In this document: positions 2,353 to 6,904 of the stretch, piece by piece
Numbering within the stretch: position 1 is the first letter of the stretch
Layout of the letters: every line of letters begins with the position of its first letter
From: Candidatus Gastranaerophilales bacterium
GTDB lineage: Bacteria > Cyanobacteriota > Vampirovibrionia > Gastranaerophilales > Gastranaerophilaceae
Assembly (NCBI GenBank): GCA_947589705.1
Contig: CANQCO010000002.1
Location: forward strand, 1-57,755
Length of the DNA stretch: 57,755 bases
Direction of reading: 5' to 3'
Program-made: the position numbers and the translations under genes
Notes under the pieces: model-generated
Seen by the model: the letters and a program-made list of their open reading frames with translations, nothing else
The model's database searches: none
Told to the model about the DNA's origin: nothing

Positions 2353-3654
2353 TTAATTTTCACTTTTTTTTTGCGGTTTACTTTTTGGAATATCTAATTT
2401 TCCAACATATTCTTTATCTTCGTTAAATCTACATATCATTTCATCATTCATTGTAGGAAAATCTTCCTGATTATATATTTTCATTTCTGCAATAATCATA
2501 TCTGCAGTAATGAGCTGTTCGGGGAAAGCCTTATGATGTCTTGCTTTGCTTACAAACAATTCTAATTCTGCAGGGGTATAAATTAACATATCATCTTTCA
2601 TAGTATCTATTACTTTTTGATAATCAAAATCTTGTGCACTATTTTGTTCACCATATTTATACAGAGTATATTTAATCATATCAGAAACCGCAAAATCTTC
2701 CATATTCCCAATAGGAATTTTTAAATCAGCTCTACCCGGTCGCAATATAGCCGGATCCATTAATTGAGGGTTATTTGCTGTTCCTATCCATACAGCTCCT
2801 TTTTGTGCACATTTATCGCTGCATTTTAGTAATGCTCTTATCTCTCTTACACATTCGGGATGATTTCTTCTATCCATAAAAAAGTTATCAATATCCTGTT
2901 TAAAGTTTATTAATGTTATTTTACCGGTTTTTTCATAATTTTCTTTAGCGTCCGAAAAAGCTTTTTGAATAGTTCTAACATTTTGTGAATGATTTGTTTC
3001 TGATAAATCCACATCAGTAACTTTCATTCCTAAATACCTTAAATGTTCGCATACTTTATCTGCCATATAAGTTTTACCGCCTCCCGTAGGTCCGTATAAC
3101 AATACACCATTTGGTAATTGTTTAGAATATCCCAAATATTGACCTGTAGATGCTGATACAATAGGCGCTATTAAATCCATTGCAAGTTTATACTTTTCAA
3201 CTCCGTAGCCCTGTACGGCGTTTAATCCCTTTTCGTTCCCATCATTCGTTATTGGTATATCAGCAAGCCTTAAGAAGCTATAATGATAATTTTTTGCATC
3301 TTCATAAGAAACTCCAAACTTTTGGGAAATGTTATTTATTGAATCATTTGTTTCTTTTTCAATTCTTGCTTGTTCTTCTGCTCGTTCTTTTTCATCCAAA
3401 TTAGTTTTATATACACTGGCACCAACCACTCCTGTATAAAACAAAGCATATCCCAATATTGCAGCTAACATTACAGGATCCATTCCAAATGAAGGATTAT
3501 AATGCCTATTTATAACAATTTGAGCTTTCCCATAGCTGTTTGTCATTTTTTGCAGATTATTTTCTTTTTCAATTCCTGCATTGTTTATTTTTGGAACATT
3601 TTTTCTCAGGCTAAAACTATTTAATTTTGTACCATTTAATGCTGAAATTCTCAT
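2353..3654 (-). CDS. Membrane-anchored AAA+ ATPase with altered Walker B
   Basis: The 433-residue protein has an N-terminal S-F-G motif (55-57), one predicted membrane segment (about 60-82), a charged helical stretch, and then an AAA+ module. Walker A is intact (G188-P-T-G-G-G-K-T195). The Walker B position reads I-N-F-K-Q-D (249-254) instead of four hydrophobics plus D-E, so ATP may be bound but poorly hydrolysed. Sensor 1 (G-T-A-N-N, 291-295) and the L-R-P-G-R motif (304-308) are FtsH/Cdc48-like. No protease or other effector domain follows. It lies 17 bases downstream of a second AAA-like gene with the same layout, so the two probably form one complex. Substrate unknown. Confidence 0.75.
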   Translation of the reverse strand: MRISALNGTKLNSFSLRKNVPKINNAGIEKENNLQKMTNSYGKAQIVINRHYNPSFGMDPVMLAAILGYALFYTGVVGASVYKTNLDEKERAEEQARIEKETNDSINNISQKFGVSYEDAKNYHYSFLRLADIPITNDGNEKGLNAVQGYGVEKYKLAMDLIAPIVSASTGQYLGYSKQLPNGVLLYGPTGGGKTYMADKVCEHLRYLGMKVTDVDLSETNHSQNVRTIQKAFSDAKENYEKTGKITLINFKQDIDNFFMDRRNHPECVREIRALLKCSDKCAQKGAVWIGTANNPQLMDPAILRPGRADLKIPIGNMEDFAVSDMIKYTLYKYGEQNSAQDFDYQKVIDTMKDDMLIYTPAELELFVSKARHHKAFPEQLITADMIIAEMKIYNQEDFPTMNDEMICRFNEDKEYVGKLDIPKSKPQKKSEN

Positions 3655-3671
3655 ATACTTCTATATACCTC

Positions 3672-4553
3672 TCATTTTAATATTTCTCTTACTTCTTGCA
3701 ATAATTTATCTTTTTTACTTCCATCTTTAAATCTTTCAATCAATGAAACATACATATCCCATACTTCTTTAGAATCTTGAACAGAAGGACGGACTAGAAT
3801 TTTATGTTCCATTCTGCCCATTCTGGTAATAGCAGGATCAACTTTTGAAATATCAACCGCTTCTGAAATCCATGTAATACCTTTTTTTCTGCAATCCTGC
3901 ATATTTATTAAAGCACTTACAGCTCCTGAAGCACTGCCATCATTTATTGTTCTTTCCATGGCTATTCTATCTAAATCTCTTACTACAATTGCTGTTCTTT
4001 GTTTTGTATTTATAAATCTCTGTTCTGCCTGCTTAATTAATTCGCTTATTTTCCCGCCAATATTTCTTGAAGAAGCTTCTGATGCTCTTGGAGCCTTTTC
4101 TATTGCGTATCCTGCCTGTTTAATATCTTCTAAGAATTTAGTCATTGCCTGTTCTTTTCCTATTGAATCAGGACCGTAAAAACATACACCGTTTACGGTT
4201 GCCTCATCTAATTTTTGTACATCGTCAATTAAAAAAGTCTTGGCTTTATTTATTAAATTTTCCATTACTCCGTTATTTTCAGTTTGTTCCATATTTTGGG
4301 TAACAGAGTTTATCACAGTTTTTGCGCCGGATGAATTTTTTCTTATTGCAAAAAAAGCTATTGCAGCTGCAATTACTGCCCCTGAAATTAATATAGCTTT
4401 CTTATTATTTTTTATTTTTTCTTTTACATTTTTTAATTCAAAAGCATCAGGTTTTTGCGGTTTTGAGCATGTCTGATAATTATTTTTTCCGGGCTTAATC
4501 ATGCCATCAAAAATACGTTCAGATGTATTATTCAGCCCAAATGTAACTTGCAT
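3672..4553 (-). CDS. Membrane-anchored degenerate AAA-like protein, partner of the next gene
   Basis: The 293-residue protein begins with a T-F-G motif (4-6), has a membrane segment at about 52-70, and an AAA-like module. The P-loop position is G-P-D-S-I-G-K-E (127-134), keeping the Lys but with an unusual insertion, and Walker B is V-V-R-D-L-D (190-195). The D-P-A-I-T-R-M-G-R segment (239-247) corresponds to the D-P-A-x-L-R-P-G-R element of the neighbouring ATPase. No C-terminal lid beyond about 280 is evident, so it is shorter than typical AAA proteins. It is the first gene of a two-gene operon; its TGA stop is 17 bases before the next ATG. A regulatory or dead subunit of a hetero-oligomer is inferred. 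Confidence 0.65.
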   Translation of the reverse strand: MQVTFGLNNTSERIFDGMIKPGKNNYQTCSKPQKPDAFELKNVKEKIKNNKKAILISGAVIAAAIAFFAIRKNSSGAKTVINSVTQNMEQTENNGVMENLINKAKTFLIDDVQKLDEATVNGVCFYGPDSIGKEQAMTKFLEDIKQAGYAIEKAPRASEASSRNIGGKISELIKQAEQRFINTKQRTAIVVRDLDRIAMERTINDGSASGAVSALINMQDCRKKGITWISEAVDISKVDPAITRMGRMEHKILVRPSVQDSKEVWDMYVSLIERFKDGSKKDKLLQEVREILK

Positions 4554-4680
4554 TTTTATTTGCCCTCCAAAGATTAAATTAATTTTAACAAATTTTGCAA
4601 GTCAAAATCTCGATGTTATATAACATTTGAAATATTATTTTACATTCTGACTTTAATTGTTGCAGCTATATTTAATCTAG

Positions 4681-4800
4681 TGTCGCACTCTACCACCGAC
4701 TCCTCGTCGCTGTACGAGTGCTCACCTTTTCAATAACGTCACTCTCAAAATTTTACTCACACCACTTCGTGTCTTATCGTAAAATTTTGTTCGGACACAT
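4681..4800. repeat. GC-rich intergenic patch with short inverted repeats
   Basis: The 279-base gap 4554-4832 holds no credible ORF. Its central part is clearly richer in G+C than the surroundings and contains ACGAAGTG-type words on the minus strand, also found in the repeats at 26716-26940 and 42091-42514. Two copies of AAAATTTTAC/CAAAATTTTAC in the order expected of a partial inverted repeat flank the CACTTCGTG core. It looks like a decayed member of the same family. Confidence 0.4.
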
Positions 4801-4832
4801 TTCTTTTTCGGTAATACCATAAGAATTTAAGG

Positions 4833-6023
4833 TTATCTCCTAAATTTTATTTTAATACCCAAAATACGTATCACTTTATGTGAATTTTCATTCTTTATTG
4901 AGAATATTTCTTGTATAAAAGGAATATGGCTTTTACCTATTTTTAGTTTTTTCAAATATTCCTTTTCGTTTTTTGTTTTTCTAATGTTGCCATAATTATT
5001 TGCAAAAGCTTTAATTGATTCAATGTCTCGCATCCCGGAATCCGAATTTCCGCATAATCTTCCACCAAGCCAGACAACTTCTAATCCGAGTAGATGTGTA
5101 ACAACATAATAAATTTTACCCGCAGCACTTAACATATTATTTGTTATATGTTCAGCATTAATCATATTATTTCTATAGTCTGCATCTATACAAATATTAG
5201 TTATATTCGGATTAAGTTCTGATATTTTTTTACATAAAAGGCAAAAACTGAATATATCTTTGTCTGACAAGTTTGAATTATCGCCCATTAAAATATATTT
5301 CAGAGTAATTTCATCATATATATCATTTTGAGCTAATTCTTCTAAATTTTGTACGACTTTATTAAAACAGTTATTACCTCTTAACCTTGCATAAGTTTTT
5401 TCCGTGCCGGCATCTATTGATGTATATAGCTTTCTGTTAATATTATAATATGATTTCATGGCATTAAAAAATTCATGTTTATTAGGAATAACAGATGAAT
5501 TTGATAAAAACTTTAATATCGGTCTTTCAAAATTTTCACCTAAAAATTTTACAATTTCAGGAATGTTATTAACAAACATAGGTTCTCCACCACCGATGAT
5601 TAATTCAAAATCATCTTTTAAAACATTTTGTTTTTTTAAGTTTTTTAATACGGGAAGAATATTTTTCTTTTCAAAATCAGGCTTTTGGGCGAGTTTCTCT
5701 TTAGGAATATAACAATATGAACATCGCAAATTGCAAGTTGTATAAGGCATATAAATCAATGTTTTTATTTTATTTATATCAATTTCGCTTTCTTCAATAT
5801 CTTTTAACATCGCGCATTTGTGGCAAATATGATTAGGGTTTTCATTAATTTCATTATATATTTTCTTTCTTGCGGTTATTATGTCATCATAAGTTAAATC
5901 AGCATAGTTTTTTTCGGGTACTATTTCTACGTCTGTTGCACAACAAGTGAGAATTTTATTATGCTCCAATCTTACAGTACCCCCTTCCTTACTATTTAAA
6001 TGACGACAAACTTTCTTTTTCAT
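4833..6023 (-). CDS. Radical SAM protein with surface-polysaccharide-type C-terminal tail
   Basis: The 396-residue protein carries the radical SAM cluster motif C97-x3-C101-x2-C104 and the G-G-G-E-P motif (144-148). Extra cysteines upstream (C27-C28, C67-x2-C70) could ligate another Fe-S cluster or zinc. The last residues read I-L-G-I-K-I-K-F-R-R, a tail I know from capsule and LPS glycosyltransferases. A role in modifying a cell-surface glycan or peptide is therefore inferred; the substrate cannot be read from sequence. The start has an AGGAAGAAAGGG ribosome binding site. The upstream gap holds two inverted recombination-like sites beside a tyrosine recombinase, so expression may be switchable. 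Confidence 0.7.
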   Translation of the reverse strand: MKKKVCRHLNSKEGGTVRLEHNKILTCCATDVEIVPEKNYADLTYDDIITARKKIYNEINENPNHICHKCAMLKDIEESEIDINKIKTLIYMPYTTCNLRCSYCYIPKEKLAQKPDFEKKNILPVLKNLKKQNVLKDDFELIIGGGEPMFVNNIPEIVKFLGENFERPILKFLSNSSVIPNKHEFFNAMKSYYNINRKLYTSIDAGTEKTYARLRGNNCFNKVVQNLEELAQNDIYDEITLKYILMGDNSNLSDKDIFSFCLLCKKISELNPNITNICIDADYRNNMINAEHITNNMLSAAGKIYYVVTHLLGLEVVWLGGRLCGNSDSGMRDIESIKAFANNYGNIRKTKNEKEYLKKLKIGKSHIPFIQEIFSIKNENSHKVIRILGIKIKFRR

Positions 6024-6064
6024 TTTTATCCCTTTCTTCCTGTTTTTAAGTTATGTATTCCACT

Positions 6065-6090
6065 CTTAACAAAATAGACATTTTGTTAAG
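6065..6090. repeat. Inverted site 1, candidate recombinase target
   Basis: A perfect palindrome with 10-base arms (CTTAACAAAA and TTTTGTTAAG) around the six-base centre TAGACA. Arms of 9-13 bases around a 6-8 base centre are the normal layout of tyrosine recombinase core sites. A second copy in the opposite orientation lies at 6207-6232; the two share 22 of 26 positions, including the 15-base core AACAAAATAGACATT. Confidence 0.55.
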
Positions 6091-6206
6091 AAAGGCAGAA
6101 AAGCTGTATATAGACGCAAAAAAGGAGAAATAAATATTAAGAAATTAAACATATTTTATTTAAATATGTTTAAAAATATTTTGGGATGAACTATAATATT
6201 TACAAT
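6091..6206. promoter_or_regulatory. Candidate invertible promoter segment (116 bp)
   Basis: This segment lies between the two inverted sites. On the plus strand it contains TATAAT at 6192-6197 with TTTAAA 17 bases upstream (6169-6174), pointing away from the radical SAM gene in the present orientation; inversion would aim it at that gene. It also has a hairpin with 12-base arms (TTAAACATATTT and its complement, about 6145-6173) and a GGAG element with no start codon after it. The promoter and the switching are inferred; the region is very AT-rich, so chance -10 matches are easy. Confidence 0.4.
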
Positions 6207-6232
6207 CTTAACGGAATGTCTATTTTGTTGTG
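6207..6232. repeat. Inverted site 2, candidate recombinase target
   Basis: This imperfect copy of the site at 6065-6090 has the centre TGTCTA, the reverse complement of the centre of site 1, so the pair is in inverted orientation. It ends four bases before the stop codon of the recombinase gene, the usual close association of an integrase gene and its target. Confidence 0.5.
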
Positions 6233-6236
6233 TTTT

Positions 6237-6779
6237 TTACAAGATAAAATTAATATAACTGTTATCAATTTGTTCCTGCTCAATACCTATATATCTTAAA
6301 GTAGTTGCAGGATTTGAATGATTAAATATTTTCTGTAGAATTACAACATCTTTAAATTTTTTATAATGATGATATCCAAAAGTTTTTCTTAAAGAATGTG
6401 TGCCTATTTTTTCCTTTATGCCAACTGATTTACAGGCGTTTTTAATAATATAGTAAGCTCCGAACCTGTCTATACGATTGTTAAAAACAGAAGTAAATAA
6501 TGGAGCTTCAGATTGTTTATCTTTAACAAAATTTTCTATCATAGGTTTAAGCTTTGAATTTATAGGAAAACTCTTATATTTACCGGTCTTTTTTTCTATA
6601 ATCCGAATATGAGTTTTATCCCTTACATCACCTACATTTAAAGCAACAATATCCGAAATCCTCAGTCCGCAATTTGTGCCGATTGTTAGTAAGAGAAGGT
6701 TTCTCATACTTTTTTTTCTTAAATAATTTTCCAGTTTTTTTAAATGTTCAATGTCCCTTATAGGCTCTACAGTTGTCAT
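6237..6779 (-). CDS. Small tyrosine recombinase/integrase
   Basis: This is a 180-residue catalytic-domain-type tyrosine recombinase, lacking the N-terminal arm and SAM-like domains of longer integrases. The catalytic set is complete: R40 in G-L-R-I-S-D, H128 and R131 in T-H-S-L-R-K, H154 in N-H-S and nucleophile Y163 in L-R-Y-I-G. The start at 6779 is chosen because AAGGAG sits at the right distance; the reading frame is open 13 codons further upstream. No phage or transposon genes are nearby, which fits a DNA invertase rather than an integrase of a mobile element. The two inverted sites downstream are its likely targets. Confidence 0.85.
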   Translation of the reverse strand: MTTVEPIRDIEHLKKLENYLRKKSMRNLLLLTIGTNCGLRISDIVALNVGDVRDKTHIRIIEKKTGKYKSFPINSKLKPMIENFVKDKQSEAPLFTSVFNNRIDRFGAYYIIKNACKSVGIKEKIGTHSLRKTFGYHHYKKFKDVVILQKIFNHSNPATTLRYIGIEQEQIDNSYINFIL

Positions 6780-6904
6780 ATATTTCTCCTTTTTCTCAAT
6801 TACATTTATAATTGTCAAACAAGGATTTAAAATATGATAACTGAATTTATCGGAACACTATATGACCGATTGTAAAAAATTCAATTATATTTTAAGATTA
6901 CTTT

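Follow-up and report, generated by a model that had tools for sequence, protein, structure and literature searches.

A short promoter segment bounded by inverted repeats, with a short tyrosine recombinase (FimB/FimE) encoded beside it, constitutes the fimS switch of Escherichia coli. The invertons described in Bacteroidota and further gut bacteria consist of a promoter flanked by inverted repeats; they lie close to surface-glycan genes, and a gene for a tyrosine recombinase is often found in the vicinity (PMC11892184, PMC8748976, PMC4747536). RecV, a tyrosine recombinase of Clostridioides difficile, inverts short regulatory segments in dispersed switches (PMC7446863, PMC9286219). The locus described here, in a 57,755-nucleotide stretch of DNA from a Candidatus Gastranaerophilales bacterium (the window), resembles FimB/FimE-fimS in that a short tyrosine recombinase gene adjoins a short, proposed promoter segment bounded by inverted sites. 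It differs in lineage and site sequence, in the targets, which in this family are usually polysaccharide genes, and in the recombinase, which scores far below the cut-offs of the E. coli FimB/FimE-type invertase models (NF007371, 35.1 of 222 bits; NF007370, 28.1 of 221 bits). With the RecV switches the locus shares a tyrosine recombinase and short segments but its arrangement is local and recurs with diverged recombinases, and, unlike in the Bacteroidota-type invertons, each Gastranaerophilales locus has its own recombinase, directly upstream of the switch, and its own site centre. Gastranaerophilales were not found in the three inverton papers cited above, and no paper linking the lineage with inversion phase variation was found in the open-access literature, where the statement of an earlier note on this DNA that the lineage offers no known example stands uncontradicted, the main 2019 inverton survey (Jiang et al.) being outside that search.

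The features of the locus, in window coordinates, are the following.

4554-6904, no strand: 2.35-kb stretch absent from relatives, holding recombinase, switch and target
4833-6023, minus strand: radical SAM enzyme, 396 aa, proposed target (PF04055, E 3.5e-14)
6065-6090, plus strand: recombination site 1, CTTAACAAAA-TAGACA-TTTTGTTAAG, a perfect 10-bp dyad adjoining the radical SAM gene
6091-6206, no strand: proposed invertible segment, 116 bp, between the opposed sites; segments of similar length in relatives are seen inverted
6145-6173, no strand: 12-bp perfect A+T-rich hairpin within the segment, from the repeat search
6169-6197, plus strand: candidate promoter TTTAAA-17-TATAAT, weak, read from the sequence and kept in the related genome G035
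6207-6232, minus strand: recombination site 2, plus strand CTTAACGGAA-TGTCTA-TTTTGTTGTG, an imperfect dyad
6237-6779, minus strand: tyrosine recombinase, 180 aa, catalytic domain only (PF00589, E 4.8e-25)

The recombinase belongs to the Phage_integrase family, with a PF00589 match of 88.7 bits (gathering cut-off, 27.1) that covers nearly the whole protein, and profile searches detected no N-terminal core-binding domain. All the catalytic residues, namely, R40, K64/K67, H128, R131, H154 and Y163, with roles assigned by motif position, are present and are conserved at or near 100% in 147 aligned relatives. Among solved structures, only the catalytic domains of XerA/XerC-like proteins, XerD and XerH gave matches, all of them weak, and the NCBIfam equivalogs for XerA and XerD scored below cut-off (92.9 of 220 and 75 of 329.6 bits, respectively), in each case over the C-terminal part only. 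Given these scores and the lack of the core-binding domain, identification as a housekeeping XerC/XerD/XerA recombinase was rejected. A protein scan of species genomes yielded 71 loci, almost all labelled as Candidatus Gastranaerophilales or uncultured bacterium, together with a few Bacillota relatives of 44-49% identity; of 289 genomes sampled across the class, 143, nearly all from the window's own family, encoded a relative with an E value of 1e-40 or lower. The viral collection yielded three relatives, none of them a window orthologue.

The two sites are, as the earlier note had it, inverted copies with the opposed centres TAGACA and TGTCTA, and the proposed four-base gap between site 2 and the recombinase stop codon (6237-6239) agrees with the coordinates. 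They form the top inverted pair of the repeat search (24 nt, 92% complementary). With up to three mismatches allowed, the site 1 pattern matches the window only at these two places, on opposite strands, against 0.01 matches expected; extension of the search to the 2.09-Mb genome at the same threshold, which the earlier note had suggested, recovered the pair and no further copies. In one half-site of site 2, GG stands in place of AA, whereas in G035, in which site 1 is identical, site 2 is present in the near-perfect form TAACAAAATGTCTATTTTGTTG.

When the surroundings of each recombinase gene of the family were scanned in an unbiased way for opposed pairs of dyad sites, such pairs turned out to accompany the recombinase at a rate well above chance. 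At a score of 25, the first scan, which included a few duplicate records, detected pairs at 52 of 149 genes compared with 1 of 149 shuffled sequences and, at a distance of 3 kb, 2 of 223 windows. Among Gastranaerophilales relatives, with duplicates removed and loci added after the first scan, a strong opposed pair was found at 66 of 154 distinct recombinase genes, compared with 1 of 154 shuffled sequences and 4 of the 239 windows placed at 2.5 kb from the gene; the score and thresholds were chosen after the first pairs had been seen, so the weight of these results rests on the shuffles and the distant windows, not on the raw counts. The centres and arms of the sites vary among loci and match within each locus, most pairs begin no more than ~50 bp past the stop codon of the recombinase gene, and the centre-to-centre length is near 165 bp in many segments. 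In 57 of the 58 strong cases in which a gene was found, the first downstream gene has the same strand as the recombinase, compared with 48 of 79 for recombinases lacking a detected pair, a rough control given that some of these may have sites missed by the scan.

Two variations on this layout were observed. In a smaller set of loci (L055, L056, L057, L058, L070, L072, L090), the inverted sites flank the recombinase gene itself (~620 bp), and comparison of L055 with L057 also reveals a larger rearrangement of the neighbouring cluster. Six loci (L097, L098, L119, L120, L133, L135) have three sites, that is, two tandem segments, and in several of these another, diverged recombinase gene follows the switch on its downstream side.

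Inversion between such sites is seen when orthologous loci are compared, all sequences of this analysis being draft metagenome assemblies. The recombinase genes of L119 and L120 share 527 of 531 bases and the flanks of the two loci are conserved, whereas the segment between the second and third of their three sites is inverted; when L119 is inverted in silico between the site centres, its identity to L120 over the segment is 199/200. As read from the sequences, the swap of half-sites is exactly that expected from a crossover inside the centre TTAGTA, which places the strand exchange within the six-base centre. The segments of L135 and L157 are also inverted relative to each other and, more weakly, so are those of L156/L157 and L133/L156; in several other orthologous pairs, the orientation is unchanged. 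Near the core sites of L119, L133 and L135, outside or inside the segment, there are extra words that resemble half-sites (TCAACATTTT, ACAACATTT, ATTACATTTT) and, judged by eye, seem to vary along with the core half-site; conceivably, words of this type are accessory binding sites.

The segments of the family also share a promoter-like motif. Scoring with a matrix of the E. coli type revealed no enrichment in them, a negative result owed to the choice of model, given that a de novo search for k-mers then found TTTGTGATAATAT-like words and, with them, the motif TTTRTGnTAWnAT, which probably represents an extended -10 promoter element. The exact motif occurs in 31 of 72 segments, compared with 0.48 in shuffled sequences and 0 of 68 windows 600 bp downstream, and is absent from the other 41; it points towards the target in 12 segments, away from it in 18, and both ways in one. 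No TATAAT signal emerged from the k-mers found upstream of other genes. ACGCTAATTGCCAAA is repeated upstream of genes in the collected loci, and AATTGCCA occurs in 19 intergenic regions against 2.4 expected.

The window segment itself is less clear in this respect. The TATAAT (6192-6197) with a -35-like TTTAAA (6169-6174) at a 17-bp spacing, on which the earlier note based its proposed promoter, is indeed there on the plus strand; however, the E. coli-type promoter score of the segment is no better than that of shuffled sequence (p 0.9), and the family motif has no match in it. In the assembled orientation, TTTAAA-17-TATAAT points away from the radical SAM gene, which lies downstream of the recombinase in the same direction; in the inverted segment, TATAAT would start ~80 bp upstream of the start codon of that gene (82 by coordinates).

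Given the site pairs, the motif in both directions, the strand of the downstream genes and the inverted orthologues in the relatives, the tyrosine-recombinase inversion switch put forward in the earlier note is well founded at the level of the family, although at the window locus itself G035 has the same orientation. We consider it probable that 6237-6779 encodes a dedicated DNA invertase with local action, which flips a promoter segment and so subjects the radical SAM gene to phase variation. Under this scheme, the recombinase would bind the half-sites of the two inverted sites, and strand exchange inside the six-base centres would flip ~140 bp, measured from centre to centre. The segment would carry the promoter of the radical SAM gene, so that the assembled orientation of the window, with the candidate promoter facing away from its target, is apparently OFF, as would be that of G035, and inversion, by setting the -10 element ~80 bp upstream of the start codon, would turn the gene ON. 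Phase variation would then affect a gene whose product probably works on a glycan or peptide of the cell surface. The radical SAM protein, for which no NCBIfam model scored above cut-off, has a C-terminal FSIKNENSHKVIRILGIKIK tail similar to the one found in some glycan enzymes; among the collected loci, the motif recurs in a GT2-type protein and in further proteins.

The explanation that best competes with an active switch is that the locus inherited a recombinase and sites that are now locked or decayed, with a half-site and the promoter degenerated, so that the segment does not flip or flips without effect. The GG substitution in site 2 and the missing family motif are compatible with such decay, and so is the single orientation: the search for a flipped copy of the window segment found none, and an alignment of strains, by which the earlier note had hoped to find both orientations, shows only one in the two genomes available. 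The locus occurs in the window genome and one close relative, G035, alone. Between these two genomes, the 59 bases at the promoter end of the segment are unchanged and the other end differs. Nevertheless, the recombinase is intact with its full catalytic set and is 99% identical in G035, site 1 is perfect, and half-sites of L119/L120 with a comparable two-base departure did recombine, all of which makes a locked switch unlikely.

The neighbourhood bears on a second alternative. In G028, a member of the genus (L206), only ~155 bp separate the AAA-like gene from dppB, and L207 and L209 are similar; in G028, G039 and G030, AAA-like genes come directly after dppB, and because neither the recombinase nor the radical SAM gene lies between them, we read 4554-6904 as a 2.35-kb insertion. 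dppB is found in 37 of 41 genomes of the genus, whereas a recombinase at this place together with a close relative of the radical SAM protein is found only in G000 and G035. The recombinase, the switch and the radical SAM target thus look like a cassette inserted beside dppBC in the G000/G035 clade. The gene for an AAA-type ATPase (2353-3654) and its related neighbour (3672-4553, with no Pfam match) are conserved beside dppBC in the genus. Just past the 3' end of the radical SAM gene, there is a dispersed non-coding repeat (4675-4835) with 19 matches in its own genome, including one 123-base copy that is 100% identical.

The inserted appearance of this stretch would also be expected if the sites served integration, excision or resolution of a mobile element, but they are inverted with opposed centres, both lie on one side of the recombinase, they do not bound the inserted stretch, and in relatives inversion has occurred between such sites, so we regard this role as very improbable. 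Dyads upstream of a gene can also be operators of an unrelated regulator, a reading to which we give next to no credence because opposed pairs with differing centres track the recombinase family across loci and mark inversion breakpoints in relatives.

Returning to the inversion switch, the genes that lie downstream of it in the family suggest what is being varied. Most of the scanned downstream proteins that had matches are glycosyltransferases and sugar-nucleotide or polysaccharide enzymes; the others are HsdS, subtilase, AlgX/MBOAT, SNF2/PLD helicase, CoA-activase-type proteins and a second recombinase. At L089:1-4798, a recombinase of the switch type lies upstream of an SNF2/PLD helicase (PADLOC HKD+Snf2) and a type IIG restriction enzyme, a possible case of phase-variable defence. 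It seems fairly likely that cassette-like phase switches exist family-wide in Gastranaerophilales, with several in a genome and each having a catalytic-domain-only recombinase and matching site of its own, and that these switches control operons for surface polysaccharides and, at some loci, genes of defence or restriction (HsdS in L073; the helicase and type IIG enzyme in L089). The many diverged recombinase/site pairs within one architecture are well suited to the study of site choice by small tyrosine recombinases that lack the N-terminal domain, and TTTRTGnTAWnAT offers a candidate promoter motif for a lineage with poorly described promoters. Phase variation is, perhaps, a common way to vary the cell surface in this uncultured gut order of non-photosynthetic relatives of Cyanobacteria.
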